DNA of 64,000 nt from Algoriphagus sp. Y33. Its GTDB lineage: Bacteria > Bacteroidota > Bacteroidia > Cytophagales > Cyclobacteriaceae. The notes below the pieces were generated by a model, which did not search any database, was not told the origin of the DNA, and saw only the letters and a program-made list of their open reading frames with translations. How positions within the stretch are numbered: position 1 is the first letter of the stretch; each line of letters begins with the position of its first letter. Shown one piece after another: positions 18,172 to 34,316 of this stretch. The stretch is taken from assembly GCF_014838715.1 (NCBI RefSeq), contig NZ_CP061947.1, positions 1,488,001 to 1,552,000 of the forward strand. The letters are read 5' to 3'. The translations under genes and the position numbers were made by a program.

Positions 18172-20868
18172 ATGGCTAGAAATAATTACATGAAACTATC
18201 CGGCTTAGAGCCATTGGTTTTTACACCCGAAATTAATTTTGTCAATATAGGCGAACGGACGAATATTACCGGTTCGAAGAAATTTGCCCGATTGATTTTG
18301 AATGGAAATTATGACGAGGCACTTGAAGTGGCCTTGGATCAGGTACGTGGAGGAGCTCAAGTACTGGATGTCTGCATGGATGAAGGCATGTTGGATGGGG
18401 AGTTTGCCATGGTCAAATTCCTGAATCTGATCGCTTCTGAACCGGAGATCTCAAGAATCCCCATCATGATCGATAGTTCCAAATGGAAAATTATCGTGGC
18501 GGGATTGAAGTGTGTTCAGGGAAAAGGCATTGTCAATTCTATTTCCCTGAAAAATGGGGAAGAAGAATTTATCCAACAAGCCAAAACGGTAAAAAAATTC
18601 GGTGCGGCAGTGGTGGTGATGGCTTTCGATGAGTATGGACAGGCTGATACCTATGATAGAAGAGTGGAAATCTGTGAGAGGAGCTATAGGATCCTAGTGG
18701 ATCAAGTGAAGTTTAATCCCCAAGACATCATTTTTGACCCTAATATTTTCCCGGTTGCGACTGGCATGGATGAGCACCGTAAGAATGCATTGGACTTCTT
18801 TAATGCGACCAAATGGATTAAAGAGAATCTTCCCGGAGCCAAAGTAAGTGGCGGAGTCAGTAACGTAAGTTTTTCTTTCAGGGGAAACAATCCTGTGAGA
18901 GAAGCTATGCATGCGGCATTCTTATATCATGCCATCAAGAGTGGGATGGATATGGGGATCGTGAATCCAACCATGTTGGAAATCTATGATGACATTCCTA
19001 AGGACTTACTTGAACGGGTTGAAGATGTACTTTTCGACCGTAGAGAAGATGCTACCGAGCGTATGCTTGATTTCGCAGAAACAGTAAAGTCAGCGGATAA
19101 AAAGGAAGTAGTAAATGAGGCATGGCGCTCAGACCCTGTTTCCAAACGAATGGAACATGCGCTGGTGAAAGGTATTTTGGATTTTATAATAGAAGATACA
19201 GAGGAAGCTAGAATTGAGCTTAAAAGCCCCCTGAAGGTGATAGAAGGGCCATTGATGGATGGTATGAATGTGGTGGGAGATCTCTTTGGAGAGGGGAAAA
19301 TGTTCCTTCCCCAAGTAGTGAAATCTGCCCGTGTGATGAAGAAAGCGGTGGCCTATTTAGAGCCGTTTATGCCGCTGCCGGAAGAAGGGCAGGAAGAATC
19401 TTCCCTGAAAAAGATTCTTTTGGCAACTGTAAAAGGAGACGTGCACGATATAGGCAAGAATATAGTAGGAGTGGTACTGGCATGCAATAGCTACCAAATC
19501 ATCGATTTGGGAGTGATGGTGGATGCCCAGAAAATCATAGATGAAGCTGTCAAGAATAAAGTAGATATCATTGGCTTGAGCGGTCTTATTACTCCTTCTT
19601 TGGATGAGATGGTCAATGTGGCATCGGAGATGGAGCGTCAGGGAATCAAAATCCCGCTTCTGATCGGGGGTGCGACTACTTCCAGAATCCACACTGCAGT
19701 GAAGATCGATCCGGTGTATAGTGGAACTGTAATCCATGTGATGGATGCTAGTAAGTCTGTGCCTATCGCAGGTGAGGCTATTTCTGAGGAGACCAAAGAT
19801 GCTTACCGGATAAAATACAAGGAAATATATCAACAGCTCAGAGTAGAGCATGAAGCCAAGCAGTCTGTGAAGCAATTGATTTCTTACGAGGAGGCGAAAG
19901 CCAATCCTGTAGAGATTGATTGGGATTCATTTGAGCCTGTAGTACCCAATAAACTTGGTAGAACCGTCCTTAAAGATTTGGATCTGAATATTGTCCGCAA
20001 GTATATTGACTGGACACCTTTCTTTAGTACCTGGATGCTCAGCGGGAAATTCCCTAAGATATTTTCAGACCCCGTAGTTGGGGCTGAGGCAAAAAAAGTC
20101 TATGATGAAGCGAATGAAATGCTGGATAAAGCAATAGCTGAAAAGTGGCTATCTGCAAATGCGGTATTTGGTCTGTATCCGGTGCAGCGAAAAGATGATG
20201 ATGCAATTGTCTTTGGTGTAGATGGTATTCAGGCCGCATCCTTTCATTTTTTGCGCCAGCAAGGGAAAAAGGGCAAAGGCATTCCAAACCGTTCTTTAGC
20301 GGACTATTTACATCCTACCCAAACAGATTATATCGGATGCTTTGCAGTGACCTCAGGTATCGGTATGGAGACCAAGTTGGCTGAATTCCAAAAAGCCGGT
20401 GATGATTACAATGATATCTTGTTTAAATCTATCGCAGACAGGCTTGCAGAAGCTGCTGCCGAATATATCCATGAACTCGTTCGAAAGGATTATTGGGGCT
20501 ATTCCCAGAATGAAAACTTGGAGAATGACTCCTTGATACGTGAAGAATATCCGGGTATCAGACCTGCTCCCGGGTATCCGGCTTGTCCTGAGCATTCGGA
20601 GAAGGTCACAATTTCGCAACTATTGGATATGGAAAATGAGATTGGGATCGAGCTGACTTCAAGTTTTGCGATGTATCCCACTTCCTCAGTCTCGGGGTAT
20701 TTCTTTGCGAATCCCGAAAGTAAATATTTTGGTCTTGGAAAAATAGGAGAGGATCAAGTGGCTAGCTACGCAGAACGCAAAGGGATTTCTCTTAAGGATG
20801 CGGAGCGATTGCTTTCTCCAAACCTAGCTTATCAACCTAATTTAACCCTAGTAGAACCTACTTCATGA
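18172..20868 (+). CDS. metH: Methionine synthase, pterin-, cobalamin- and activation-domain subunit of split MetH
   Basis: An 898-residue protein with the other three MetH modules in order. The pterin-binding barrel ([31 protein letters not shown]) spans about 15-300. The cobalamin cap and Rossmann domain follow at about 330-560, with [11 protein letters not shown] giving the DxHxxG histidine that ligates cobalt. The AdoMet-binding reactivation domain lies at about 570-898 ([15 protein letters not shown]). Together with the preceding subunit it forms B12-dependent methionine synthase. Its stop overlaps metF by four bases. Confidence 0.94.
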
Positions 20869-21818
20869 AAATAACCGAACACTTGGGGAACGCTAAAAGC
20901 TCCCTGTTTTCCTTTGAAATACTGCCTCCGCTGAAAGGCCAAAGTCTTAAAGAATTGCTTGAAGGTATAGCACCTTTAATGGATTTTAATCCTCCGTTTG
21001 TAGATGTGACTTATCATAGAGAAGAATATATTTATAAGAAACACCCAAATGGATTGCTAGAGAAGATCAGTACAAAAAAACGTCCGGGAACTGTAGGGAT
21101 TTGCGCAGCGATCATGAATCGTTTTCAGATTGATGCAGTTCCGCATTTGCTTTGTGGCGGATTTACCAAGGAAGAGACAGAAAATGCATTGATCGATTTG
21201 AATTTCATCGGAGTAGAAAATGTGCTTGCTCTTCGCGGAGATGCTCCTAAGAGTGAGGGAAAGTTTATACCTGAAGCTGATGGCCATGGCTATGCCAGTG
21301 AATTGGTAGAGCAGATTATGAGAATGAACCAAGGACGCTATTTGCATGAGGAAACTGAAATTGGTTTTCAGACAGATTTTTGCGTGGGGGTGGCGGGATA
21401 TCCGGAGAAGCATTTTGAAGCTCCTTCCATGAAGTTTGATCTTAAATATCTACAGGAAAAGGTTAAAAAAGGTGCTGAGTACATTGTGACGCAGATGTTT
21501 TTCAATAACGATAAATACTTCGAATTTGTAGATCAGGTACGGGCGGCAGGAATCACTGTTCCTATTATTCCAGGAATCAAACCAATTACTACCATGGGCC
21601 AAATCACCATGCTCCCGCGTACTTTCTTTTTGGACTTGCCGGATGCTTTAATGGATGAGTTGGAGAAATGCAAAACCAACGCAGAAGTCAAAGAAGTGGG
21701 GATAGCATGGGCTATTCAGCAGTGTAAAGAACTGGTGAAAAAGAATGTCCCTTCCTTACATTTTTATACCATGAGTAAAGCAGATACAACATATAAAATT
21801 GCCAAGGAAATTTTTTAG
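20865..21818 (+). CDS. metF: 5,10-methylenetetrahydrofolate reductase
   Basis: A 317-residue flavoprotein reducing methylene-THF to methyl-THF, the methyl donor for the MetH pair encoded just upstream. Motifs include [11 protein letters not shown] with the catalytic Glu, [19 protein letters not shown], the [15 protein letters not shown] block, and [18 protein letters not shown]. The ATG overlaps the metH stop (ATGA), so metH1-metH2-metF is one riboswitch-controlled operon. A strong terminator follows. Confidence 0.95.
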
Positions 21819-21835
21819 TTTTTCTTACTTATTAT

Positions 21836-21875
21836 AAAAGCCCCGAAAGACCGTTTTTCTTTTGGGGCTTTTTTC
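21836..21875 (+). terminator. Rho-independent terminator of the metH-metF operon
   Basis: AAAAGCCCC pairs with GGGGCTTTT, extended by the GAAAGA / TCTTT pair, followed by a run of T. It lies about 18 bp after the metF stop. Confidence 0.85.
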
Positions 21876-21945
21876 TTTTGGAAAATTCTTAAGGATGATC
21901 TTTAACCTCCTTCTTTTATGAAGTAGCCGGTGATCTATTAGGTGA

Positions 21946-23142
21946 TTAGAAAGATTCGTTTATATTTAGATAAAATCCTGAATTCCCTTTTTGTCCAAAA
22001 GCATAGTCTGCAGTAATAGTAGTTCTGTTTGCTTTGTTAATCATCACTCGAAGCCCTAGACCATAGCCGGGGTTGATTTTTTTAAATAGGTTTTCATTAG
22101 TGAATTTACTTGCGAAACTGGCTGCATTCAAGAAAATTGTCCCACCAAAAGTTTCCTTTTTTTTCTGTAATGGAAACCGATACTCTGCTTCTGAATACAC
22201 CATGCTTTCTCCCCTGAAGCGACCTTGCGAATATCCTCTACCTGAACGCCCAAACATGTCATAGCCAATCGAAGGTAAGGCCATATATGGTAGATCGCCC
22301 GATACAAGGAAATTGACATAACTCCATAAGGCCAATAAATGACGTTTCCGTTTTTCACTTAAAGGGAAGTAATGGCGATAGTCGAGTAGGAGGGTGGAAG
22401 AAGATTGATTCGAGCCTAAAAACTCCGGATTGATTTTGTAAGAAACTAAGGCAAAGTTGGTCTCATAGGGCGATACTGCCAAATCCCGGTTTTCCATTAC
22501 TGCATTCAATGTAATCCCTGAAAGTGTGTTTTTATCTAACTTGAACCCTTTGGTATGATTGTAGAAATCATTGGAGAAAGTAAGCTCTTGGGTGATCCCA
22601 TCCTTCATAAAATTATCAATTTTCGAGTAGATATCAAGATGATAGCCTACGCCTAAATAAAACTTGGAAGTAGATATTCGCTTTAGCACTGTCTCGTACA
22701 ATCGTACCCAGTTGTAATCCATTTGCTGTTCTCCCCACCAGACATCTGCTTGTTTTGGGTTTTCGGTAGGTTCGTTTGGGCTAGAACTTCCCAATCCGAA
22801 GGTAGGCTGGGATGTAATGAAAAAGCGCCAGTCACCTAAAAGAATCCAGCTATCCTCAGCAAGGAAAATAGTACTCCTAGAGCTGATCAGCCATTGTTTT
22901 TTGGTCGTGTACATTAGATTTCCCACGAGATTAGACAGATGGGCGCTTTTAGGATCTCCCATCCTCCATGTAGCTGATGGGGCAATGCCAAATAACCAGC
23001 CATTGGCAGGGTTTGAAGCAATTGCAGGCAAAGGGACCAGCTTAAAATCCCGAATCTGATTTGGTCTATAGACTATTGAATCTTGTGCAAGCATGGGCAG
23101 GCTGGTCCAAAATAGCAGAGCAAAAATCAGGATCCGTGTCAT
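21946..23142 (-). CDS. Omp85/BamA-superfamily outer membrane protein without POTRA domains
   Basis: A 398-residue protein with a signal peptide (LLFWTSLPMLAQ). It continues as a 16-strand-like barrel of the surface antigen D15 type: FGRSGRGYSQGRFRGESMVY, YRFPL, the GTIFLNAASFAS strand and the C-terminal NPGYGLGLRVMINKANRTT with a terminal Phe. There is no POTRA region, as in other small Bacteroidota members. Its first 122 codons are duplicated at 30704-31069, and a fragment of the porin gene lies upstream, so it was once the downstream partner of that porin. It now follows the terminator of susCD. Confidence 0.8.
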   Translation of the reverse strand: MTRILIFALLFWTSLPMLAQDSIVYRPNQIRDFKLVPLPAIASNPANGWLFGIAPSATWRMGDPKSAHLSNLVGNLMYTTKKQWLISSRSTIFLAEDSWILLGDWRFFITSQPTFGLGSSSPNEPTENPKQADVWWGEQQMDYNWVRLYETVLKRISTSKFYLGVGYHLDIYSKIDNFMKDGITQELTFSNDFYNHTKGFKLDKNTLSGITLNAVMENRDLAVSPYETNFALVSYKINPEFLGSNQSSSTLLLDYRHYFPLSEKRKRHLLALWSYVNFLVSGDLPYMALPSIGYDMFGRSGRGYSQGRFRGESMVYSEAEYRFPLQKKKETFGGTIFLNAASFASKFTNENLFKKINPGYGLGLRVMINKANRTTITADYAFGQKGNSGFYLNINESF

Positions 23143-23353
23143 TAATCCGTGTCATTAAAATGAGATGTCTAGTTGTAGTCGGAAACGCAACTCGTTGTCT
23201 TGGGGTAAATCTTTATCTTCAAATGTAAACCGTGTCACTTCAGTTGTCAGTTTATTCTTATGCCCGGCAAAAAACCAATTGAAAGCTAAGGCCAATTCTT
23301 GTTGTTTGTTGCTTTCAATAGCCAAGTCTGGAGGTATGAGGGCATATCTTGTA
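22777..23353. repeat. 577-bp direct repeat, left copy
   Basis: This segment aligns without any gap to 30704-31280 (constant offset of 7927 bp). I count about ten substitutions by eye, so roughly 98 percent identity. It covers the 5' part of the Omp85-type gene, the 13-bp intergenic gap and the 3' end of the porin gene. Similarity stops abruptly at both ends: after GGGCTAGAAC on the left and after CATATCTTGTA on the right. Confidence 0.95.
23156..23353 (-). pseudogene. 3' fragment of porin gene (left copy)
   Basis: About 65 C-terminal codons of the porin intact at 31082-32293, ending with the same stop. The frame loses similarity at 23353 and runs into unrelated sequence. Several of the substitutions between the two repeats fall here. 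It has no start and no promoter of its own and is a by-product of the duplication. Confidence 0.88.
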
Positions 23354-23530
23354 ACCTGAATTCGATTATTAAAATATAGAATTATTGGGGTTGAAAACAG
23401 ATAAAACTAGTGCGCTTTAGTGTGTTTAAGTATCTGATTTTAAGGAGAATGATGGGGGTGATTTTAAAGTTAGATAAAATCACTGAAAATTTCTGTCTAG
23501 TTGGTGAATTTTTCGTTTCTTTGGAAAAAA

Positions 23531-23562
23531 TTCAAGGTTCCCAAATATTCGGGAACCTTGAA
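23531..23562 (-). terminator. Rho-independent terminator of susCD
   Basis: A perfect 12-bp stem TTCAAGGTTCCC / GGGAACCTTGAA with a run of A at 23525-23530, which is the U-tract on the minus strand. It lies 47 bp past the SusD stop and separates susCD from the porin fragment and the Omp85-type gene beyond. Confidence 0.9.
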
Positions 23563-23608
23563 CTAAAATAAACCCAATTTCAACTATTTATAAGCTTTTA
23601 AACATTGA

Positions 23609-25222
23609 TTAATAACCAGGGTTTTGTGTCAAATTACTGTTTTTATTGATTTCTTCCTGGGGAATGGGGTAAAGGATCCTGTAATCTCCATTGGGTTCAT
23701 GAGAAAACCAAGACTTGGTAGTGAACACCCCGAAGCGGATCATATCCTGTCTTCGTCGGCACTCTTCAAAAAACTCATATCCTAACTCATCCATAAACCG
23801 ACCATAGAGGATGTCATCCCCGCCTTCATGGGTAGTAGCATGCACATCCCTACGTCCATAATCATACCTACTACTTCCCATGAGTTCTGCTGCGGTAACA
23901 GGTGCTTCCGCGGGATTATTTCTAAAGCTACGTTCTCTTACCTGTGTCACAATAGCAGCGGCCTCACCGCCATTTCCGGTACGCAGCAAACTTTCCGCTT
24001 TCATCATCAGAATATCGGCATATCTAAAAAATGTATAGTCATTGTTCGGTATTACACCGGCACCTTGCTCTACTTCAAATTTGCTTAGACGTAAACCATG
24101 AACAGCTTGAGACGTATCAACAGCAGGCAAATCGTTAATCAAAATTAAATCCTCACCTTTTAAAGATCCATTTTGAACCGTTAGCTTATTGCCGTTTCTA
24201 TCATACAGTTGTCCCTTTAGCCAGTTTTCAGTATACCTCTCATCCAATGGGTTAAAGGTGTCAATAAATTGTGGAATGGCACATATTCCTCCCCAAGGAG
24301 AAAATCGAAGGCTGTATGTGTCCTGAGCCTCTTGAGGAAGTGTCTGCATATGATGGTCAAATACATTCCAACCAGCTGTATAGTTTTCATCAAAAATCAA
24401 TGACCAGATGATCTCTTGTGAATTCTCGTTGTAAACAACAAAATTATTCTTTTGATTGCTTTCCAACTCATATTTGCTGGATGCTATTACAATATCACAT
24501 TGTTCTATACATTTATCCCACATGGCTTCACCGGTATACACTTCCGCATTCAGATAAAGTTTGGCTAATAAAGTATGTGCCACCCATTTATTAACTCTAC
24601 CATATGAAGCATTGCCTGTTTCCTCAACTAGCAAATCGATATTGTCAGTAATATCTTTTACCAGAAAGTCAAACACTTCTTTTCGCGTGTTCTGTTCAGG
24701 AAGAAATCCCTCGGGAACATCGAATTTTGTAACAATCGGTATGTTTCCATACATATCCAAGAGGACATAATAATAGGTGGCCCTTAGCACCTTAAGTTCA
24801 GCCAATGCACTTTCTTTGAACTCTCCCAAAGGAACAAGATCATTATCTATTTGATAAATTATCCTGTTTGTGGTTGTAATCCCTCTATAAGCTCTCCTCC
24901 AACACTCAACAATTACCAGATCATCTGCAGTCCACTTATGCTCATGGAGTCTTCTGTAATCACCGGCATCTACCCAGCCCCATGGTCTTTTTGGGATAAC
25001 CAATGCATCAGAGCTGACATCTTGTGCCCAAAAGTAGCTCCCCCATCCTCCGAAAAGGTCTTTCCAGGGAACGTATGCGGATGCAATTATGGAACCTACT
25101 TCACTTTCTGTAACCTCAAAGTCTTTAGCGATCAGTGTGCTGTAACTTTCATCTGTCAGTTCTGTGCAACCGATGCTATTCAGTAGAATAGCTGATAAGA
25201 GAAATATTTTTATTGCTTTCAT
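23609..25222 (-). CDS. SusD/RagB-family nutrient-binding outer membrane lipoprotein
   Basis: A 537-residue protein with a lipoprotein signal (AILLNSIGC, Cys19). The SusD fold shows in the N-terminal helices, the LAELKVLRATYYYVLLDMYG block, VAHTLLAKLYLNAEVYTG (TPR), and the C-terminal segment YADILMMKAESLLRTGNG followed by GYEFFEECRRRQDMIRFG. SusD proteins cap the SusC transporter and bind glycans or other large nutrients. It is 11 bp downstream of susC. No glycoside hydrolase or other enzyme is encoded with it, so the ligand cannot be inferred. Confidence 0.93.
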   Translation of the reverse strand: MKAIKIFLLSAILLNSIGCTELTDESYSTLIAKDFEVTESEVGSIIASAYVPWKDLFGGWGSYFWAQDVSSDALVIPKRPWGWVDAGDYRRLHEHKWTADDLVIVECWRRAYRGITTTNRIIYQIDNDLVPLGEFKESALAELKVLRATYYYVLLDMYGNIPIVTKFDVPEGFLPEQNTRKEVFDFLVKDITDNIDLLVEETGNASYGRVNKWVAHTLLAKLYLNAEVYTGEAMWDKCIEQCDIVIASSKYELESNQKNNFVVYNENSQEIIWSLIFDENYTAGWNVFDHHMQTLPQEAQDTYSLRFSPWGGICAIPQFIDTFNPLDERYTENWLKGQLYDRNGNKLTVQNGSLKGEDLILINDLPAVDTSQAVHGLRLSKFEVEQGAGVIPNNDYTFFRYADILMMKAESLLRTGNGGEAAAIVTQVRERSFRNNPAEAPVTAAELMGSSRYDYGRRDVHATTHEGGDDILYGRFMDELGYEFFEECRRRQDMIRFGVFTTKSWFSHEPNGDYRILYPIPQEEINKNSNLTQNPGY

Positions 25223-25232
25223 TTTTCTGAAT

Positions 25233-28200
25233 TTAGAATTTTATACTAGCTCCAATTGTAAATGTCCGGGTAGTTGGATACTTATCCCTATCATCAATGC
25301 CTGGAGACAAACCGTTCCAATTTACCTCAGGGTCTATACCTTTGTATTTGGTGATAATGAAGGTGTTAAGTGTAGAAACATGAAATCTTATGGAGTGGAT
25401 ATGCTTCGATTTGAGCTGGTTGACATTATACCCCAAAGTAATATTATCGATCTTTACGAAGTCCCCATCCTCCACATAGTAATCGTTATATTCCAGAGGG
25501 ACATTTTCATTTAATATCGTCTTTCCAAAAACAGGTTCATATGCTGATTTCAGACGGTTGTACCGCTCATCTCCCGGGTTCTCATAATACATCCTTTGAA
25601 AGTTGATAATTTGGAACTTAAAGGAACCTCGCATGGTCACGCCAAAATCAAAATTCTTATAGTGAACGGTGTTGTTCCAGCCGGCATGGAAATCAGGAAT
25701 ACCATTTCCTATTATTTGCTTTTCATCGAAACTTCTGTTAAAATCGCCATACGCCACCTCTTCTCCTACACTGTTTTCGTAAATCCAATAGCCATCATCC
25801 GATATGTCTGCTACGTTGTAACCGTGAAAATTACCTATTTCACCTCCTATTTCTACAAGGTGTGTATGTGTTTGGATAGGTACTCCGGTATGTCCCGTCG
25901 GAAAATAATTCGTCTCTAATTTGTACAAATCATTCGATAAGCTTACAAGCTTGTTGGTATTGGTGGAGTATAACAACTGTGTAGTCCAATTTACATTCTT
26001 TGTTTTTACCGGTTCTATTGACAGACTGACTTCAAGCCCCTTATTTTCCATCATACCAACATTCGCTCTTGTAGACGGATAAATATTGGGAGGACTAGGT
26101 ACCTGGTAGTCGTACAACAATCCATCAATTCGTCTTACGTAATAATCCACCGTGCCATATACCCTATTATTAAACAATTCAAAATCAACACCTACGTTAA
26201 ATTCCTTCTTTTCCTCCCATTTCAAATATGGATTTGGGTTCCTTGTAGGAACCAAAGAGCGTACCCAGGCACCATTGACCAAGTAATAGTCTGAGAAACC
26301 TAGTGTAGCAACACCTAAAAAAAGATCGGCCGGAGCGTTTCCGGTGACACCGTACCCAGCTCTTAGCTTCAGGTTATTGACAACACTGATATTATCCATA
26401 AAGCCTTCTTCATGTATTCTCCACCCTAATGATAAAGCAGGGAAAGTTCCCCATGGTTTTTCGGCACCATACAGTTGGCTTGCTGCTTCACGACGTACGC
26501 TGGCCAAAAGCAAATATTTATCTTTGTAGGTGTAATTGACTCTACCGAAAAAACTGATCAGGTTGGTTTTTCCTCTGGAGCTGCTCTGGCTGGCTAACCC
26601 ATCTGCAAGGGCTTTTCCTGCCCCAATATCTGCATATCCAACTTGATCGGTTGGAAAGTCAAAGTTACTCATCGACATATCAAACCACTCGTTTTCTTGA
26701 TAACCATATCCTCCGAGTACCGAAAATTCATGTCCACCGAATACTTTTGAATAATTGGCAGTAAGCTCTGAATACTTATTTGAGGCATCTCTGTTACCTA
26801 TTGAAGCATAACCGTTACGGCCGTCCCGTATATTGCTGATATGGTTCTTGGTCTCAGAGTAACCCCGGGCATCATTGAACTTATCATAGGCAAACATCGC
26901 TTTTAGGCTTAGTCCTTCTAAAGGCATATATTCTATAGTACTATTATACCTGGTAAATTGGCTTCTCTTACGACCATCGCTTTCGTATAATCTGGACAAG
27001 GGGTTTTCATAGTCAAAGATCCCTTCCTGAAACCATCTGCCATCCTCCGTTTTGATTGGAGAAGTGGGGTTCTGAATAGTCATTTGACGGTAGGTCCAAC
27101 CACTAAAACTGGTATTATCTCCTGTGGTAGTGAATGAATTTTGTCTTCCCAGTATACCTATATTAAATACCAGTTTATCATTAAGCATTTTGTGCTTGAT
27201 ATCAACACGGCCACTAAAGGTTTTGTTGTCAGATTTAAGCATGATGCCTTCCATATCGCGATAGTTGAGATTAATGAGGTAACTGGTTTGCGCTTTGCCT
27301 CCACGATAGGTCAGGTTATGAATTTGTGAAAAGGGGCTCCTTGTTCCTTCTTTAAACCAGTCGGTATCAGAACCGTTATCCCAACTCGCATCCCGAGTCC
27401 CATCTGCTATTTGCTTTCTATAATCAGCTGCCGTAAGCATATCCAGTTGTCGGTAAACCTGATCTGTGCTCATTTGTACACTGTATTCAACAGAATTGAT
27501 TTGATTCTTATCAAAACCTTTGGTGGTGATCAATATCACCCCGTTGTTTCCGCGTACACCATAAATCGCCGCTGCGGAACCATCTTTAAGTACATCAATA
27601 GATTCTATATCCTCGGGAGCAACTGTCCGGAAGTCACCGGGAATCCCATCTATTAAAATCAAAGGAGACGAACTGGCACCTAAAATAGTTGTATTGCCCC
27701 TAAGCGATACCTGCACCCCGCTGGTAGGGTCCCCACTGGTGGATCCAATAGTCAATCCTGCCACTTTACCTTGAATCAATTGCCCCACATCCTTAACCGG
27801 TGCCCTGACAAAATCTTCCGCTTTTACAGAAGCTACTGAACCGGTTACATCTCCCTTCTTTTGGGTGCCATATCCAATTACCACTACTTCTTCCAATGCT
27901 AAAAGATTTTCATCCAATTGGACATCAATGACAGTTTGGTTGCCCACTGTCACAGTGGTGGTTTCATATCCTATAAATGAAAATACCAAGGTGGCCCCTT
28001 CGGCTACTTCTATGGAATAATTACCGTCAATATCAGTTACAGTGCCTGAGGAAATTCCCTGAATGCTCACGACGACTCCTGGAATGGGTTCACCCTCGGA
28101 ATCCGTAACTTTTCCTGTTATTATTACTGCTTCAGAGATCACCACCTGTTGTTGCGTTTTTGAAGGTGATTGGCTGATGTCTATATTATGATTGACCTGT

Positions 28201-28526
28201 TTGAAGCTAAGGTTTGACTGATAGACAATTTCCCTTAAATGGTCCTCAATGGTGTTTTGAGAAGACGAGAAGCGGTAAACCTCATTGCGGTCTACATGCC
28301 TTTTGTCATAAGAAAAGTTAAAATCAGTTAGTTTTTCCACCGTGGAAATGAAATGTTTCAGAGTCATTTCCTTGCTGCCCAGATCGATGGACACCTCATC
28401 GATGGACTTCAACTGCGCATTTACCTCTCCGGCGGTTACCAATGAGATAAATATCATTTGGATAAATATTCCATATAGGAAATACTTCGACAACATATAG
28501 ATTGTCCTTTGTAATTTTAAATTCAT
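25233..28526 (-). CDS. SusC/RagA-family TonB-dependent transporter with N-terminal STN signalling domain
   Basis: A 1097-residue outer membrane transporter. After a signal peptide (to about residue 38) comes an STN domain at about 50-120 (SKEMTLKHFISTVEKLTDFN). Next is a carboxypeptidase-D-like regulatory domain at about 135-210 (VTDSEGEPIPGVVVSIQG, DGNYSIEV), a TonB box region EEVVVIGYGTQKKGDVTGSV, the plug (LILIDGIPGD, NGVILITTKG) and the barrel. The STN domain normally contacts the periplasmic end of FecR; a FecR and an ECF sigma gene lie immediately upstream, so transport and signalling are probably linked. Confidence 0.95.
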   Translation of the reverse strand: MNLKLQRTIYMLSKYFLYGIFIQMIFISLVTAGEVNAQLKSIDEVSIDLGSKEMTLKHFISTVEKLTDFNFSYDKRHVDRNEVYRFSSSQNTIEDHLREIVYQSNLSFKQVNHNIDISQSPSKTQQQVVISEAVIITGKVTDSEGEPIPGVVVSIQGISSGTVTDIDGNYSIEVAEGATLVFSFIGYETTTVTVGNQTVIDVQLDENLLALEEVVVIGYGTQKKGDVTGSVASVKAEDFVRAPVKDVGQLIQGKVAGLTIGSTSGDPTSGVQVSLRGNTTILGASSSPLILIDGIPGDFRTVAPEDIESIDVLKDGSAAAIYGVRGNNGVILITTKGFDKNQINSVEYSVQMSTDQVYRQLDMLTAADYRKQIADGTRDASWDNGSDTDWFKEGTRSPFSQIHNLTYRGGKAQTSYLINLNYRDMEGIMLKSDNKTFSGRVDIKHKMLNDKLVFNIGILGRQNSFTTTGDNTSFSGWTYRQMTIQNPTSPIKTEDGRWFQEGIFDYENPLSRLYESDGRKRSQFTRYNSTIEYMPLEGLSLKAMFAYDKFNDARGYSETKNHISNIRDGRNGYASIGNRDASNKYSELTANYSKVFGGHEFSVLGGYGYQENEWFDMSMSNFDFPTDQVGYADIGAGKALADGLASQSSSRGKTNLISFFGRVNYTYKDKYLLLASVRREAASQLYGAEKPWGTFPALSLGWRIHEEGFMDNISVVNNLKLRAGYGVTGNAPADLFLGVATLGFSDYYLVNGAWVRSLVPTRNPNPYLKWEEKKEFNVGVDFELFNNRVYGTVDYYVRRIDGLLYDYQVPSPPNIYPSTRANVGMMENKGLEVSLSIEPVKTKNVNWTTQLLYSTNTNKLVSLSNDLYKLETNYFPTGHTGVPIQTHTHLVEIGGEIGNFHGYNVADISDDGYWIYENSVGEEVAYGDFNRSFDEKQIIGNGIPDFHAGWNNTVHYKNFDFGVTMRGSFKFQIINFQRMYYENPGDERYNRLKSAYEPVFGKTILNENVPLEYNDYYVEDGDFVKIDNITLGYNVNQLKSKHIHSIRFHVSTLNTFIITKYKGIDPEVNWNGLSPGIDDRDKYPTTRTFTIGASIKF

Positions 28527-28616
28527 AATTTTGAGTTTAGTAAAGTTCAGAAAACAGGGTAGAGGATGCGTCCATTCCCCAATGTACTTGCATTCATACT
28601 ACCCCTTTTGACTTGG

Positions 28617-28643
28617 CCATCCGCCTCGGCGGATGGTTTTTTT
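28617..28643 (+). other. 9-bp GC-rich stem-loop followed by T-run, between fecR and susC
   Basis: CCATCCGCC / GGCGGATGG with a TC loop and seven T residues on the plus strand. It has the look of a terminator but the orientation is opposite to the genes on both sides. It may act on antisense transcription or be a structured spacer between fecR and susC. Confidence 0.5.
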
Positions 28644-28673
28644 ATGAGCTGTTAATTTTCATGGTTATTTGGG

Positions 28674-29717
28674 TTAAAATTTGATCTGTATTTTTTTTTC
28701 ATTAATCTCATATTCAAACCTTTCTACATAAGACATGCGATCAAGCACCATTTTCAAACTCTCATTATTATACCTTCCGGTGAGATGCCAGGATTGTGTT
28801 GGACTTCCTGTTGTTTGGATATTCACGCCATACCACCTTTCCAGTTCTTCGATGACTTCTAAATAAGGAGTTTCCTTAAAGTGTAGAATTCCATCTTTCC
28901 AACCGGTTACCCAATCTCCTTTAAATTCGTCTACCAGAGTTTTCTGTTCAGTTTTGATGTATTGGAGTCTTTGTCCGGGGGAAAGCAGGATCTTTTCCTG
29001 TGTGTCTTTGTTTTCCACTTTTACTTTACCGTGTACAAGTGCCACATTTAACCGGTCTTTGTGGAAGGTATTGATGTTAAAAGCGGTTCCTAATGCAGTA
29101 GTCGATAGGCTACCTGTGACTACCTGAAAAGGACGTTCGGGGTCTTTGGCTACGTCAAAATAAGCCTCGCCTATAAGATGTACACTTCTCAGTGAATCGG
29201 GAAAGTTTGAAGTGAATTCCAGTTTGCTGTCTGAATTGAGCCAAACCAAGGTGCCGTCTGGAAGTTTAAATTTACTTTTTTGACCTCTCAGGGTCTGTTT
29301 TTGAATGGTAGTAATAGGTGATTCTTCCTTAGTGCTTTTTTCCGGTGAAAAAGGAGGTTGAGGCAATCCAAGAAACAAAAAAAATGCAAGTAAAAAGACA
29401 GCAGCTACCTTTGCCCCCAAAGCAAGATGATTGCTCCACGGAGGTAATGTGGAAGCCTGTTTGCTTTTTTCTTTATCAGTGGGTTGGCTTTCTTTTCGAA
29501 AAATCTCTAAAAGTATTTTCTCTTTTTCCAGGTCAGGGAGTTCATTACGGGTAATTTGGATACCCAGCACCATTTCCCTTGCGGCGAAAAAATCCTCACG
29601 CTTCTCAGGGTGCACATCCAACCATTTTTGCCAGTAACGGTCCGTATGTTCATCAGGCTTTTTGACCCAACGTACAAATTCTTTATTCTTTAAAAGTTCA
29701 CTAACTTGGTCTTTCAT
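28674..29717 (-). CDS. FecR-family anti-sigma factor
   Basis: A 347-residue single-pass inner membrane protein. The cytoplasmic N-terminus (residues 1-90) includes DRYWQKWLDVHPEKREDF, typical of DUF4880/FecR N-termini. The membrane segment is near 98-116 (AAVFLLAFFLFLGLP). The periplasmic FecR domain holds LPDGTLVWLNSDSKLEF and GEAYFDVAKDPERPFQV, and a C-terminal DUF4974-like STN-contact domain ends the protein. It receives the signal from SusC and controls the ECF sigma encoded upstream. Confidence 0.92.
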   Translation of the reverse strand: MKDQVSELLKNKEFVRWVKKPDEHTDRYWQKWLDVHPEKREDFFAAREMVLGIQITRNELPDLEKEKILLEIFRKESQPTDKEKSKQASTLPPWSNHLALGAKVAAVFLLAFFLFLGLPQPPFSPEKSTKEESPITTIQKQTLRGQKSKFKLPDGTLVWLNSDSKLEFTSNFPDSLRSVHLIGEAYFDVAKDPERPFQVVTGSLSTTALGTAFNINTFHKDRLNVALVHGKVKVENKDTQEKILLSPGQRLQYIKTEQKTLVDEFKGDWVTGWKDGILHFKETPYLEVIEELERWYGVNIQTTGSPTQSWHLTGRYNNESLKMVLDRMSYVERFEYEINEKKIQIKF

Positions 29718-29794
29718 GGATTTTTTTGTGCTCCTCCGTATATAACAGGAAGAAACCTCAAGAAAACCATCACGAAAATCCGAAAATTTTTAAA

Positions 29795-30409
29795 TTATTT
29801 TTTGATGAGCGTAGATTTTAAAAAATCAATGGTGCGGTACAATAGGGTTCTGGTAGCTTTTAGACTGGAAAATCCCATAATTTCTTTGATCTGCTCATAG
29901 CTCAAATCCTCAAAAAAATAATAATAGACCATTTCTCTTTGCCGTGTTGTCATTTTTTTGAGCGCGGTATTTAGTTGTTTAACCTGTTCTTCTTGGATCT
30001 GTTGATTGATCAAAATTTGTTCGTGGGAAAAAGTTAACTCAAAATGGGTGATTTGATCTAACGGGATTACTTTGTGAAGCAAGGTGTTCTTTTCACGGAC
30101 TACTTTTCTTCTCAAGGCTTTAAACAAATAGAATTTTATAGAGCCTGTTTTGCCTAATTTTTGACGGTTGGTCCGGATTTCTACGAATAGGTCTTGAATG
30201 GCATCCTTTACCAATTCCTCATCATCGGAAAACTTGCACCCGTAATCAAATAAGTCAGATACATAAATTTCATATATGCGGATGAAGCTGGATTCACAGC
30301 CAGACCTGAATGCATCCCAAAGGCACTCCTGATGGGGGATGTCATAGTCTTTTAGGGTAGATAAGTTCCTTTGGTCAGGAACCTCCACCAAGCGGTTTAC
30401 TTCGGTCAT
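29795..30409 (-). CDS. RNA polymerase ECF sigma factor
   Basis: A 204-residue sigma-70 family protein of the Bacteroidota ECF group associated with FecR. Region 2 includes YEIYVSDLFDYGCKFSDDEE and LVKDAIQDLFVEIRTNRQKLG. Region 4 includes MTTRQREMVYYYFFEDLSYEQIKEIMGFSS followed by a basic helix (given here only by its key parts: the YEQI helix and the MGFSSLKATR turn). It directs polymerase to its own target promoters, most likely susCD. It ends 77 bp ahead of fecR on the same strand. Confidence 0.92.
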   Translation of the reverse strand: MTEVNRLVEVPDQRNLSTLKDYDIPHQECLWDAFRSGCESSFIRIYEIYVSDLFDYGCKFSDDEELVKDAIQDLFVEIRTNRQKLGKTGSIKFYLFKALRRKVVREKNTLLHKVIPLDQITHFELTFSHEQILINQQIQEEQVKQLNTALKKMTTRQREMVYYYFFEDLSYEQIKEIMGFSSLKATRTLLYRTIDFLKSTLIKK

Positions 30410-30703
30410 TTGGGCAGGGTTTATTAGTGTGATTTGTTAAAACACTCAGTAAGCTAATAAAAAAATGTATAAATGACATAAATAAAACATTGCTTTCAGT
30501 GAATTAAAGCCATAGTGTGTTTGATGTATATCTTTTTTACAAGAGGTTATAGTAATGCAGGAAACAGGGAAATAGCTTTTAAAAATCTATGATATAAGAT
30601 AGTAACAAAGAGGACAATTATTCAATCCCCATTGTCATCAATGGCTTAGAAGACTAAGTCCATATTCTTTGCGTGATGTCTAAAAATATAGCGCTGCTAA
30701 AGC

Positions 30704-31069
30704 TGGGCTAGAACTTCCCAATCCGAAGGTAGGCTGGGATGTAATGAAAAAGCGCCAGTCACCTAAAAGAATCCAGCTATCCTCAGCAAGGAAAATAGTA
30801 CTCCTAGAGCTGATCAGCCATTGTTTTTTGGTCGTGTACATTAGATTTCCCACGAGATTAGACAGATGGGTGCTTTTAGGATCTCCCATCCTCCATGTAG
30901 CTGATGGGGCAATGCCAAATAACCAGCCATTGGCAGGGTTTGAAGCAATTGCAGGCAAGGGGACCAGCTTAAAATCCCGAATCTGATTTGGTCTATAGAC
31001 TATTGAATCTTGTGCAAGCAAGGGCAGGCTGGTCCAAAATAGCAGAGCAAAAATCAGGATCCGTGTCAT
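30704..31069 (-). pseudogene. 5' fragment of Omp85-type gene (right copy)
   Basis: The first 122 codons match the intact gene at 21946-23142, including signal peptide and start codon. At 30704 the similarity ends, and eight or so foreign codons (ALAALYF) lead to a stop at 30680. The fragment keeps its position 12 bp after the intact porin gene, showing the ancestral order porin then Omp85-type protein. The product would be a truncated, exported peptide unable to form a barrel. Confidence 0.9.
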
Positions 31070-31280
31070 TAATCCGGGTCATTAAAATGAGATGTCTAGT
31101 TGTAGTCGGAAACGCAACTCGTTGTCTTGGGGTAAATCTTTATCTTCAAATGTAAACCGTGTCACTTCAGTTGTCAATTTATTCTTATGCCCCGCAAAAA
31201 ACCAATTGAAAGCTAAGGCCAACTCTTGTTGTTTGTTGCTTTCAATAGCCAAGTCTGGACGTATGACAGCATATCTTGTA
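30704..31280. repeat. 577-bp direct repeat, right copy
   Basis: Gap-free partner of 22777-23353. The intervening segment 23354-30703 is 7350 bp and holds susD, susC, fecR and the sigma gene. Differences I see include c/t at 22944, a/g in the GGCAAAGGG run, t/a and t/g near the Omp85 start, and six in the porin part. Together the two copies make the geometry A-B-X-B-C. Confidence 0.95.
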
Positions 31281-32293
31281 GCAATTTCCAAAGGGTCAGG
31301 CCAAAAATTAAATAGTTGTGAAGGGAAATATCCTGCTGCCAAGTAGAATCCGCCCAAATCAGTATTGATTTCATCAAAGTTATCATAGATGTTTTTGCGA
31401 TGGAATTCACTAGCCCAAGAGAAGCCTTTGTAGTTAAAAGCTGTCTCAATTTGATATTGTTTTACTACATATTGAGCGTCGTTGGTCCCTTCAAATCCTG
31501 AGAGATTTCCTCCTCCGGAGGTAGAAAAACGAGTGTAGGGGCTGGTATTGGTGATAGCCGCAATGGCTACAAGCCCCGCCGGCTTTTGTGAGATTTTCAG
31601 ATCACCTCCGGAGAAAGGCACTTCCCTGCCAAGGAAATTCCATTGGAATCTACCAAAATACATCATTTTGGAATCGTCATTTTGAGTGGCTGCACGCCCC
31701 ATGCCTGTAAATACAGCTGCCCAATAGTTGAAATTTGCTATTCCACCCCCATCAAGATTCCCATAAACCTCTACACCTTGCTGTCTATCTACGGTGAATT
31801 TTCTGTTCAACAGTGATCTATCTACCATTTGCTGATCACCACTACTTATGAACCGCTCTCTGGTAAATTCTACTTTCCATTGACCTGCTTTAAAGTTTAG
31901 CCAAGGCCATTTTTCGATCATGACCCGGTAGTCAAGCAATAAGCTTCTCGATAGCTCATATTCAAAGTAGTATTTAATCCAAGGCTGGTAGGCATGCCCG
32001 CCGACTTTTAATCGTGCTCTGTTTATTTTAAAAACCCGTTGATCCTGATTACGAAAGTCAGCAAACGTAATCGGATCTTGATCATCCGGCAAGGCAAATC
32101 TTAGCTGGAGTCTGGCTCCTATCTGCATTTCATATTTTCCATCTTCACTTTTAAGAACAAACCCCTTTGAAGTGTGATTCAGAAAAGACTCTTTTTTCAT
32201 TTGGGATGCTTGAATACTGTCACTCTCTTGGGCAAAACCACATACTATGAATGTGAAAAAACTAATGAACAGGAGAAAATAAAATAATTTCAT
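31082..32293 (-). CDS. Porin of the phosphate-selective porin O/P type
   Basis: A 403-residue protein from the ATG at 32293, where MKLFYFLLFISFF begins a clear signal peptide ending GFAQ. An open frame continues 39 codons further upstream but would bury the signal. The mature part starts with the KGFVLKSEDGKYEMQIGARL strand and contains FKINRARLKVGGHAYQPWIK and KAGQWKVEFTRERF, typical of OprO/OprP-like 16-strand porins, ending LRFRLQLDISF. It is the upstream partner of the now-broken Omp85-type gene. Confidence 0.87.
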   Translation of the reverse strand: MKLFYFLLFISFFTFIVCGFAQESDSIQASQMKKESFLNHTSKGFVLKSEDGKYEMQIGARLQLRFALPDDQDPITFADFRNQDQRVFKINRARLKVGGHAYQPWIKYYFEYELSRSLLLDYRVMIEKWPWLNFKAGQWKVEFTRERFISSGDQQMVDRSLLNRKFTVDRQQGVEVYGNLDGGGIANFNYWAAVFTGMGRAATQNDDSKMMYFGRFQWNFLGREVPFSGGDLKISQKPAGLVAIAAITNTSPYTRFSTSGGGNLSGFEGTNDAQYVVKQYQIETAFNYKGFSWASEFHRKNIYDNFDEINTDLGGFYLAAGYFPSQLFNFWPDPLEIATRYAVIRPDLAIESNKQQELALAFNWFFAGHKNKLTTEVTRFTFEDKDLPQDNELRFRLQLDISF

Positions 32294-32832
32294 GTGCAAG
32301 ATTATTCGCTTAATCTCATTTTGAGAGGATGGACGTTTTTTCGCAGGCACAAATAACGTGAATAGCACCGAGAATATTCTCAATAGCCCCATGGAAATCG
32401 CCTTTAACAATCCTGAAATGGGTAACCCTTCCCTGAGTTGACTTTTTTAAGAAAGTGATCATATTTGAGTATATGAATCTTGTTTCGAACACTCGAAGGG
32501 ATTTTTGGAGTAAAATAGGTGTTTTTGCAAACGCTTCAATATACAGTTGGTGCAAATACAATGGATATGTAATTGCAGGCATATGCCTCTGGAATCTCTG
32601 AAGTTCCTTCCTGTCGAATTCCATCAGGATTAAGCAATAATTGCTCTCTGAACAAATCCAATATCTTTACGTGCAGTCTTGGAAGTATTTCCTGATACGC
32701 TGAGCCGGTCCCAAAGACAGTTCGGAACTACTGTCTTTGGGAATATGTAGAAAAACCCATGATAAGCAAAGGCAAAAAAAACTTAATTCCGTTCAGGTAG
32801 CCATTTATAAGGCCTACATTTTCCATCAAGTA
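32294..32832. other. 539-bp intergenic region upstream of the porin gene
   Basis: Two overlapping minus-strand frames (32316-32624 and the porin upstream extension) show no recognisable protein, no clear start region and biased residues; I do not call them. The region must contain the porin promoter and the 3' end of the PAP2 transcript. It also holds the long stem-loop at 32709-32742. Confidence 0.5.
32709..32742. repeat. 13-bp perfect inverted repeat (stem-loop)
   Basis: TCCCAAAGACAGT / ACTGTCTTTGGGA with an 8-base loop that can itself pair partly. There is no T-run, so it is not a standard terminator on either strand. It lies 91 bp past the PAP2 stop and about 415 bp upstream of the porin start. 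Confidence 0.6.
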
Positions 32833-33408
32833 CTATTTCAGTAGTATTTTAAGAATCTCTCTTTTGATAAAAACCACTAAAATCCAAGATAAAAGTGCTG
32901 CAAGGAGCCCTACCACTGCCCCCACCAATACATCAGCGGGATAGTGTACTCCTAGATAAATTCTGGTGTAGGATATTACTGCGGCCCATAAAAACAGCCA
33001 TGGAAGAAACTGGAGCTTGCCTCTCATTTTAAGGTTTAGGAAAAGCGCCAACCCAAAGGTATTGGCAGCATGGGAGGAAGCAAAACCAAATAAGCCTCCA
33101 CATCTGCCATAATTGTGAATCACTTCATCCCATCGCTCATCATGGCAGGGTCTTAGCCTTTCGAAAAAAGGTTTCATAAAAGCTGAAGTCACTTGATCGG
33201 AAATCAGAATGGTCAACGCTATCCCTCCAAATACCCACCAGCTGGCCTTGGGTTCTACTCTATAGATGAAGTAAATCAAGACAGCATAAAACGGAACCCA
33301 AACAAGTGTTTGGGATAGTTGAAAAGCGACCGCATCCAGCGAGTCTGTATGAAAGGAATTTAGCCAAAGGAACAATTCCTCATCCCAAGTTTTGATTTGC
33401 TCGATCAT
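32833..33408 (-). CDS. PAP2-family membrane phosphatase
   Basis: A 191-residue inner membrane protein with five to six membrane segments. The three phosphatase signatures are visible: KPFFERLRP (KX6RP), SSHAAN (the PSGH block, with Ser in place of Pro) and TRIYLGVHYPADV (SRX5HX3D, with Thr for Ser). Family members dephosphorylate lipid phosphates such as undecaprenyl diphosphate. It overlaps the hemF stop by four bases and so is the last gene of tamL-hemF-PAP2. Confidence 0.87.
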   Translation of the reverse strand: MIEQIKTWDEELFLWLNSFHTDSLDAVAFQLSQTLVWVPFYAVLIYFIYRVEPKASWWVFGGIALTILISDQVTSAFMKPFFERLRPCHDERWDEVIHNYGRCGGLFGFASSHAANTFGLALFLNLKMRGKLQFLPWLFLWAAVISYTRIYLGVHYPADVLVGAVVGLLAALLSWILVVFIKREILKILLK

Positions 33409-34316
33409 TTTACATAAGATAACCAGTCAATTCTTTTTTTGAGGTGGTTTTGGGTGTATTCTTCCTTGGTTCCTACTTTAGGCTCATGCATGTATTCCCA
33501 CTCAGCTATAGGAGGCATACTCATCAAAATACTCTCAGTACGTCCATTGGTGTCCAGTCCGAATTTGGTGCCCGCATCCCATACCAAGTTGAATTCCACG
33601 TATCTGCCCCTTCTAAGGTTTTGCCAAGATTTCTCGTTTTCTCCGTAGTTTATTTGGGAATTTTTCTTCATAAAATATCCATATACTTTCGGAAACAAGC
33701 GTCCTAATGACAAACTGAATTGAAGTATGTTTTCAAATTCGTTGTCATCTTTTGCTTTCAATCTGTCGTAGAAAATCCCTCCAATTCCCCGGGTTTCATC
33801 TCTATGCTTGATGTAGAAATAGTCGTCCGCCCAGTCTTTAAATCTAGGATAGTAAGTAGAATTATATTGGTCACAGACATTCTTTACTTCCTGATGAAAA
33901 TATTTTGCGTCATTTCCATCGATATAATGAGGAGTTAAATCTATTCCTCCTCCAAACCAATGCTCTCCATTATCCATCTCAAAGTATCGGATGTTCATGT
34001 GGATAATCGGTACCATCGGGCTTTTGGGATGCAAGACAATAGATACACCGGTTGCGAAAAAATCAGCTTTTTTCAGATTTAATTTTTTCAGAATTTTATC
34101 GGGAGTAGGGCCATGTACTGCTGAAAAAGCAACCCCTCCTTTTTCAATAATGTTTCCATCCTTGAAAATCCTGGTTCTGCCGCCACCTCCCGCAGATCTT
34201 AGCCACTTATCTTCTATGAATTTTCCGCCACTATCAGCCAATTCCAGTTCTTTGCAGATATAATCCTGCATCTGACGGTAAATTTCAGCTATTTCTTCTT
34301 TACTTTTTCGCGACAT
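33405..34316 (-). CDS. hemF: Oxygen-dependent coproporphyrinogen III oxidase
   Basis: A 303-residue enzyme that converts coproporphyrinogen III to protoporphyrinogen IX with O2. Conserved blocks are GGGGRTRIF, GVAFSAVHG, MVPIIHMNIRYFEM, WFGGGIDLTPHY, GIGGIFYDRL, and the C-terminal RGRYVEFNLVWDAGTKFGL with GRTESILMSMPP. Full family length. It implies aerobic growth. It begins 17 bp after the tamL stop, and the next gene overlaps it by 4 bp. Confidence 0.95.
   Translation of the reverse strand: MSRKSKEEIAEIYRQMQDYICKELELADSGGKFIEDKWLRSAGGGGRTRIFKDGNIIEKGGVAFSAVHGPTPDKILKKLNLKKADFFATGVSIVLHPKSPMVPIIHMNIRYFEMDNGEHWFGGGIDLTPHYIDGNDAKYFHQEVKNVCDQYNSTYYPRFKDWADDYFYIKHRDETRGIGGIFYDRLKAKDDNEFENILQFSLSLGRLFPKVYGYFMKKNSQINYGENEKSWQNLRRGRYVEFNLVWDAGTKFGLDTNGRTESILMSMPPIAEWEYMHEPKVGTKEEYTQNHLKKRIDWLSYVK

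Follow-up and report, generated by a model that had tools for sequence, protein, structure and literature searches.

Merodiploids made by transformation are reportedly known in Streptococcus pneumoniae (PMC3784515). In conjugation of Escherichia coli, linear DNA that enters the cell is ligated into a circle and inserted through a single crossing-over; of 60 clones examined there for one-sided recombination, most had a stretch of the anchor gene duplicated, not deleted (PMC3240628). Homology-facilitated illegitimate recombination (HFIR) has been proposed for the T6SS immunity arrays of Vibrio cholerae (PMC5361080). Elements of the IS982 family encode a DDE transposase of their own type, carry a second inverted end and, when a direct repeat is present, it measures 2-10 bp (PMC7335449).

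The locus described here lies in a window of 64,000 nucleotides, the whole stretch of Algoriphagus sp. Y33 DNA that was analysed. Positions 22777-23353 and 30704-31280 of this window form a direct repeat with 567 of 577 bases identical (98.27%), without gaps and at a constant offset of 7927, and identity drops to background directly beyond both ends. The original prediction of a gap-free 577-bp repeat with about ten substitutions was borne out, exact alignment giving 10. It was the sole direct repeat reported within the window (minimum length 60, 14-base seed), and across the complete genome, a single contig of 6,378,979 bp, a search found it at these two places only. The left copy consists of omp85 codons 1-122, a spacer and the 3' end of a porin gene. 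At the start of omp85, 13 bp are duplicated in tandem in both copies and in none of six relatives.

The flanks also have the predicted content. On the left, an intact omp85-type gene (21946-23142, minus strand; 398 aa, Pfam Omp85) is followed by a 199-bp porin 3' stub (23155-23353, minus strand), which stops at an IS end and holds 6 of the 10 repeat substitutions; at 4 substitutions in this stub the left-copy base was found in none of six relatives. On the right, the porin gene (31082-32410, minus strand; Porin_O_P) is intact and omp85 is truncated (30680-31069, minus strand) to codons 1-122 plus 7 codons read into the insert, here called X. The proposed A-B-X-B-C geometry is therefore right, a homologous segment B being duplicated in direct orientation around X. 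Omp85 itself was matched in 39 of 59 same-genus genomes, our own counted.

As had been predicted, X contains genes for an ECF sigma factor (29795-30409, 204 aa), a FecR-type anti-sigma factor (28674-29717, 347 aa), a SusC/RagA TonB-linked outer-membrane protein (25233-28526, 1097 aa; TIGR04056, 2.1e-219) and a SusD-type lipoprotein (23609-25222, 537 aa; SusD_RagB, 2.2e-23), all on the minus strand. A hairpin at 23531-23562 (minus strand), read from the letters as a self-inverse match, is the probable terminator of the SusCD operon. Four long ORFs among those of at least 80 aa in X were identified by the family scan, the smaller ones being mostly overlapping, and no integrase, relaxase, replication, mobility or structural gene was recognised among the long ORFs apart from the IS relic described below. 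The SusC/SusD pair of a polysaccharide utilisation locus is present, and the genes scanned, metF through pap2 (20865-33408), showed no carbohydrate-active enzyme. The 294 bp upstream of the sigma gene (30410-30703), up to the putative illegitimate joint, showed no recognisable IS end; this segment gave matches in 33 of 344 family genomes, our own included (E <= 0.01, best two candidates per genome), which outside its own locus were at most 47 bp long among the matches listed. A genome of another genus (G324) has the same sigma-FecR-SusC-SusD order at 46-59% amino acid identity. That X was copied from another place in the Y33 genome was rejected, as only one match spanned X; a paralogous SusC at C1:2677660 was 46% identical. 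Derivation of X from a detached GH127 gene beside an IS982 relic was likewise rejected, since the single weak GH127 match in this genome (25.9 bits against a cut-off of 24.9) lay far from both IS982 relics.

The left repeat copy stops exactly where an IS982 terminal inverted repeat starts (23354), which the original prediction had not noticed, and a 159-bp segment consisting of this repeat and the start of a transposase gene (23354-23512, plus strand) stands between the repeat copy and the SusD terminator. Bases 1-159 of X aligned with an intact element of genome G031 at its transposase-5' end, the alignment opening with base 1 of that element's 21-bp terminal inverted repeat. The local score was 66, whereas the highest among 200 shuffles of X, made in 20-base blocks, was 19; the transposase of that element matched NF033520 transpos_IS982 at 7.5e-81. 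The segment starts ACCTGAATT and fits AC(N)6T, with just one T of the final TT in AC(N)6T(N)5TT, and its first 14 bases differ by one substitution from the end of the G031 element. Only the first codons of the transposase remain, and the segment is a relic, not an element. The right edge of X is a bare joint within omp85. All alignment scores over 30410-30760 were below the 95% shuffle level, and a scan for the IS-end motif that tolerated 4 mismatches found 23354 and otherwise only matches with all 4 of them, none at 30703. Using a Bacteroidota-type promoter pattern, a simple scan of the minus strand from 21500 to 33500 gave four distinct matches, all outside the relic, so that none able to drive omp85 was found within it. 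One match (31147-31177) falls within the right-hand repeat copy, on the upstream side of the omp85 stub; its left-copy counterpart was not among the matches listed.

The uninterrupted porin-omp85 locus that had been looked for in relatives does exist. Among 29 relatives' omp85 loci (most about 4.2 kb), a porin match lay within 100 bp of omp85 in 12, one had a porin fragment only and 16 had no porin match. Sigma, FecR, SusC and SusD genes were near omp85 in none of the 29 loci within the stretch examined, and 19 wider loci contained only two distant SusC proteins (38-39% identity), 8-10 kb away. As for the SusCD segment, which was also to be sought elsewhere, with the best four candidates per genome scored, a match spanning X occurred in one of 72 same-genus genomes, our own, and in none of the other 71. 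Matches to X in named organisms came from 16 loci, none in Algoriphagus, in a scan from which near records were possibly omitted. X is thus patchy within the genus, being present in our own genome and, for SusD, in Algoriphagus sp. 4150.

In sp. 4150, a sister species under whose name no literature was found, the Omp85 (J2X69_000144) and SusD (J2X69_000145) orthologues are each 93% identical in amino acids and belong to a genome record with the same longest contig (785,728 bp), adjacency being read from the consecutive locus tags and this equal contig figure. Because consecutive tags belong to 93% orthologues, the omp85-SusCD linkage apparently predates the split from sp. 4150, and the SusCD segment would therefore be no recent arrival here. 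The original prediction held that the same arrangement in relatives, with strongly diverged repeats, would speak against recent integration; by locus tags, one half of the arrangement, the left junction, is shared with sp. 4150. A stub-length protein search (three matches, no sp. 4150 stub) was dropped as proof of absence and carries no weight, because the window's own stub was also unlisted although its own Omp85 was listed in the Omp85 search.

The two repeat copies themselves appeared younger. Over Omp85 residues 1-122 they formed one group (100/99), separate from sp. 4150 and from seven further relatives, and T13, R26, M77 and L102 were common to both copies and found in none of these eight. 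Their DNA identity is 98.3%, compared with 81-86% for four same-genus Omp85 pairs at 92-94% amino acid identity. Judged from these sequences, the left junction is apparently old, and the second flank copy is apparently younger or has been homogenised; gene conversion between the two repeats would likewise make the copies sisters. Under strict polarity, 4 of the 6 differences in the porin part were left-derived, against 0 right-derived in the omp85 part (Fisher P = 0.015; P = 0.19 if two polarity-less omp85 sites are counted as right-derived). In this small test over 10 sites, 23150 was right-derived, four sites had no polarity, and one left-derived change, T67A, fell in the intact omp85, outside the stub. 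By polarity the porin stub would be older, which we count in favour of the two-step rearrangement proposed below.

The locus looks like the outcome of ordinary stepwise genome rearrangement, not like a freshly integrated element. We tentatively favour, at a little less than an even chance, a two-step rearrangement in which an IS insertion together with SusCD was followed by exchange with conspecific DNA. In an ancestor common to Y33 and sp. 4150, the porin gene would have been hit by an IS982-family element at a point 199 bp short of its 3' end; the sigma/FecR/SusC/SusD operon, probably from outside the genus, would have come to lie beyond that element, and a deletion would have taken most of the element, so that omp85, porin stub, IS end and SusD were left in this order. 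Later, in the Y33 lineage, X-bearing and X-free DNA of one species would have recombined, once by homologous exchange within the omp85/porin junction and once by an illegitimate joint at codon 122 of omp85. Either end-joining would have closed an X-bearing chromosomal fragment into a circle that entered an X-free locus by a single crossover, or an X-free fragment with an intact porin would have been joined in through homology at just one of its sides; both routes would yield A-B-IS-X-B-C with one complete copy of each gene. From such a product, RecA recombination could loop X out again as a 7927-bp circle.

A close rival, somewhat less probable in our judgement, is that the whole A-B-IS-X-B-C arrangement is ancestral to the sp. 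4150 split and that gene conversion keeps the repeats alike, less effectively near the IS-side edge. It accommodates the omp85-susD linkage shared with sp. 4150 and is simpler, needing one event and ordinary conversion. The differences do gather at the IS edge, a clustering that the original prediction had not noticed either, with 6 of 10 in the last 104 bp beside the IS982 end (binomial P = 0.004) and 3 within the last 21 bp (P = 0.005); however, the opposite edge has 0 differences over 167 bp, and nearly the whole repeat would have to convert after the split. A related idea, to which we give little credence, is that the repeats bound a reversible cassette. RecA-dependent loop-out and return (or conversion) of the 7927-bp sigma/FecR/SusCD unit since before the sp. 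4150 split would have kept the repeats alike; if so, a population could switch between a porin-omp85 operon without interruption and a cassette for glycan uptake lying upstream of omp85.

Another route, a tandem duplication with one end inside omp85 and the other at the right end of a nearby X, then insertion of IS982 into the redundant porin, a deletion next to the IS and disappearance of the second X, seems unlikely. The IS end does lie exactly at the duplicated, redundant porin, and IS-adjacent deletions are a usual outcome, but this route takes more steps and needs a vanished second X, of which the single match in our own genome and the 71 other same-genus genomes gave no sign among the best four candidates each. 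The version originally predicted, recent integration by single crossover of a circle carrying B and SusCD, fits the geometry, the 98.3% identity and the uninterrupted loci in relatives. Homologous exchange with one illegitimate joint indeed remains a good route to the second copy; however, on its left X is bounded by an IS982 end where a circle would have left an arbitrary joint, X has no recognised gene for replication, mobility or an integrase, and the linkage already present by locus tags in sp. 4150, at 93% amino acid identity, disfavours a recent arrival, which makes this version improbable. Long direct repeats can mislead assemblers, but an assembly artefact is very improbable given the single 6.38-Mb contig, the 10 differences by which both copies were resolved and the recurrence by locus tags of the left junction's gene order in sp. 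4150.

If the two-step explanation is right, the locus is a readable case of how Bacteroidota may gain orphan SusCD transporters, in which an IS breaks a neighbouring gene and same-species recombination restores an intact copy, leaving a duplicated flank. An old junction beside young repeats offers a clean discriminator between gene conversion and a second transfer, and near-identical flanking repeats alone are no proof of recent insertion. Judged by title, the papers found on SusC together with insertion sequences, direct repeats and integration in Bacteroidetes held nothing on such a case.

Like the S. pneumoniae merodiploids, the arrangement would be a partial chromosome duplication produced through genetic exchange, although nothing ties the event here to competence. 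X shares with the ECF sigma/FecR/SusCD operons of Bacteroidota the order sigma-FecR-SusC-SusD, all genes being open; in G324 and G290, however, a GH127 beta-L-arabinofuranosidase gene adjoins susD, whereas no enzyme gene was recognised here. As orthologues have GH127 and alpha-L-arabinofuranosidase genes for neighbours, the substrate may, as a guess, be glycans of the arabinan type. The relic resembles the IS982 family (PMC7335449) in a terminal repeat that starts with AC and fits AC(N)6T, with an intact relative of about 1 kb in G031, but only 159 bp are left and the far end is gone, which makes the target duplication unreadable. HFIR as proposed (PMC5361080) likewise combines one homologous anchor, one illegitimate joint and remnants of displaced genes; it usually comes with deletion (PMC3240628), whereas the anchor is duplicated here. 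Although the circularised linear DNA in E. coli (PMC3240628) was laboratory plasmid DNA and ours is a natural locus with an IS end, the likeness extends to an anchor duplicated on both sides, with one joint homologous and the other, as would be the case here, ligated.

Exact alignment gave two direct repeat copies of 577 bp (22777-23353 and 30704-31280), gap-free, at a constant offset of 7927 and with 10 substitutions (98.27% identity), as originally predicted, and identity was at background level immediately beyond both borders. No other direct repeat was reported in the window (minimum length 60, 14-base seed), and a search of the genome's one contig (6,378,979 bp; window at 1488001-1552000) placed the repeat at two places only. 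The gene content agreed with the predicted layout: the left flank contained complete omp85 and the final 199 bp of the porin gene, the right flank complete porin and omp85 codons 1-122. Genes for SusD, SusC, FecR and an ECF sigma factor, each with an open frame, lay on the minus strand of the intervening segment X (23354-30703). The omp85 gene is no longer directly behind a whole porin gene, being located behind the SusD terminator, an IS relic and the porin stub.

In the protein search, the closest named Omp85 matches were from Algoriphagus, and an omp85 match was obtained in 39 of 59 genomes of the genus, including our own. When 29 omp85 loci of relatives (most of about 4.2 kb) were analyzed, a porin match was located within 100 bp of omp85 in 12, providing the uninterrupted locus for which a search of relatives had been proposed, while 16 had no porin match and one had a porin fragment only. 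The latter, from G028 (probably A. aquimarinus), has the porin cut down to a C-terminal fragment adjoining an OmpA-domain fragment (L055:10051-10627), an independent case of decay of this porin. Sigma, FecR, SusC and SusD were found in none of these 29 loci, and the only X-gene matches in 19 wider loci of relatives were two SusC proteins, distantly related (38-39%) and at a distance of 8-10 kb. The uninterrupted porin-omp85 pair is thus a common arrangement, to which X is an addition. At the DNA level, with the best four candidates per genome scored, 67 of 72 same-genus genomes matched X to some extent (E 0.001 or better); apart from our genome these matches were short (at most 430 bp among the matches listed) and diverged, and among the matches listed only our genome had one spanning X.

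The gap between porin and pap2 was about 0.4 kb (32410-32836), while close relatives have several genes there, for example an OmpA-type protein of 788 aa and proteins of 388, 482 and 221 aa in L053; the intervening genes of the relatives are therefore not present here. On the other side, omp85 is followed by metF (20865-21946), whereas four close relatives have a GFO/IDH/MocA-type oxidoreductase (L054, L055 and L056) or small envelope genes (L053) at this place, which makes the left flank a rearrangement point as well.

X bases 1-84 and 122-159 matched the stretch directly upstream of an intact IS982-family transposase gene in the genome G031 (L038:579-1475; NF033520, 7.5e-81; Pfam DDE_Tnp_1_3), which belongs to an element of 1021 bp whose inverted ends, each 21 bp long, are 86% complementary. 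The alignment began at terminal repeat base 1, the first base past the left repeat copy, ran to 23512 and scored 66, compared to 19 for the best of 200 block shuffles. The same 14-base end was found in a relative in genome G058 and in a decayed copy elsewhere in our genome. Compared with the IS982 end pattern AC(N)6T(N)5TT, described in PMC7335449 together with direct repeats, when present, of 2-10 bp, the relic matched AC(N)6T and only one of the last two T bases. Neither motif scan nor alignment recognised an IS end at the right edge of X. With an end at the left edge and none recognised at the right, the IS was most likely once inside the porin gene, the left border of the repeat being its insertion point; the rest, as far as the sequence flanking the SusD terminator, would have been lost later. 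The two other IS982 places in our genome (E 1e-20 or better) were both decayed. Judged by eye, one (L133:2269-3043) precedes a sigma/FecR/SusC-like run and the other (L134:2478-2983) a TonB-receptor-like gene, and the G058 copy (L135:1324-2353) is located between a receptor-like and a sulfatase-like gene. By this inspection IS982 repeatedly adjoins outer-membrane uptake genes, through either chance or target bias.

By family, the products of X would form a surface-signalled glycan importer. Orthologues in the same gene order were found in another genus (G324, probably Echinicola jeungdonensis; sigma 56%, FecR 46%, SusC 59%, SusD 58%), with a GH127 beta-L-arabinofuranosidase gene after susD; in the genome G290, GH127 also follows susD and an alpha-L-arabinofuranosidase gene precedes sigma. 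No such enzyme was recognised adjoining the SusC/SusD pair in two further genomes (G291 and G279), nor was any enzyme recognised beside X, the one weak GH127 match of our genome being elsewhere. Given these neighbors of the orthologues and none beside X, our guess is that X may be an orphan importer of arabinose-containing glycans.

Over Omp85 residues 1-122 the two copies differed at 2 positions, and the left copy differed from Algoriphagus sp. 4150, a separate taxon entry, at 10. In a tree of these residues the copies grouped with each other at a support of 100/99, separate from sp. 4150 and from seven further relatives; T13, R26, M77 and L102 were common to both copies and absent from all eight comparison sequences. 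Both copies had a tandem duplication of 13 bp where omp85 starts (23132-23157 and 31059-31084), which was absent from all six relatives compared. The DNA identity of the copies was 98.3%, compared to 81-86% for same-genus Omp85 pairs at 92-94% amino acid identity (n = 4); 97% was reached only by the two same-genus pairs at 98%. The repeats thus appear to be young or rejuvenated.

When the polarity of the differences was read against six relatives, five sites were left-derived (22944, 23266, 23333, 23340 and 23341), the left copy having a base that no relative has and the right copy one that occurs among them; by the converse rule one was right-derived (23150), and four gave no call. The last 104 bp of the repeat contained 6 of the 10 differences (P = 0.004). 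Four of the five left-derived sites were in the porin stub, and the fifth alters residue 67 of intact omp85 from T to A; 2 of the 6 porin-part differences change an amino acid. The omp85 part had no strictly right-derived site (4/199 vs 0/366, Fisher P = 0.015; P = 0.19 with two omp85 sites lacking a polarity call counted as right-derived). The pattern leans towards longer-lasting decay in the porin stub than in that of omp85, or towards weak conversion at the IS edge.

The protein search also identified SusD (J2X69_000145, 93%) and Omp85 (J2X69_000144, 93%) of sp. 4150, the longest contig being 785,728 bp for both. Since the locus tags are consecutive on what must be one contig, the two genes are adjacent in sp. 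4150 as in our genome, and the omp85-susD linkage, as read from these tags, is old and common to both. An old junction with a young second copy is most simply explained by two events. In an ancestor, the IS would have inserted with X beyond it; later, DNA with X would have recombined with conspecific DNA lacking X, through one homologous and one illegitimate joint. Ancestral duplication with gene conversion between the repeats, which would leave rejuvenated copies, is nearly as good an explanation. The original prediction of integration by a single crossover was partly supported overall, while a recent mobile circle as the source of X is disfavoured. We regard the rearrangement at this locus as ordinary but well resolved. 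A study in E. coli describes linear incoming DNA that is ligated to circles and integrates via single crossing-over, and one-sided recombination in which most of 60 clones screened had part of the anchor gene duplicated rather than the expected deletion (PMC3240628). For V. cholerae T6SS clusters, HFIR has been put forward to explain displaced genes left behind (PMC5361080).
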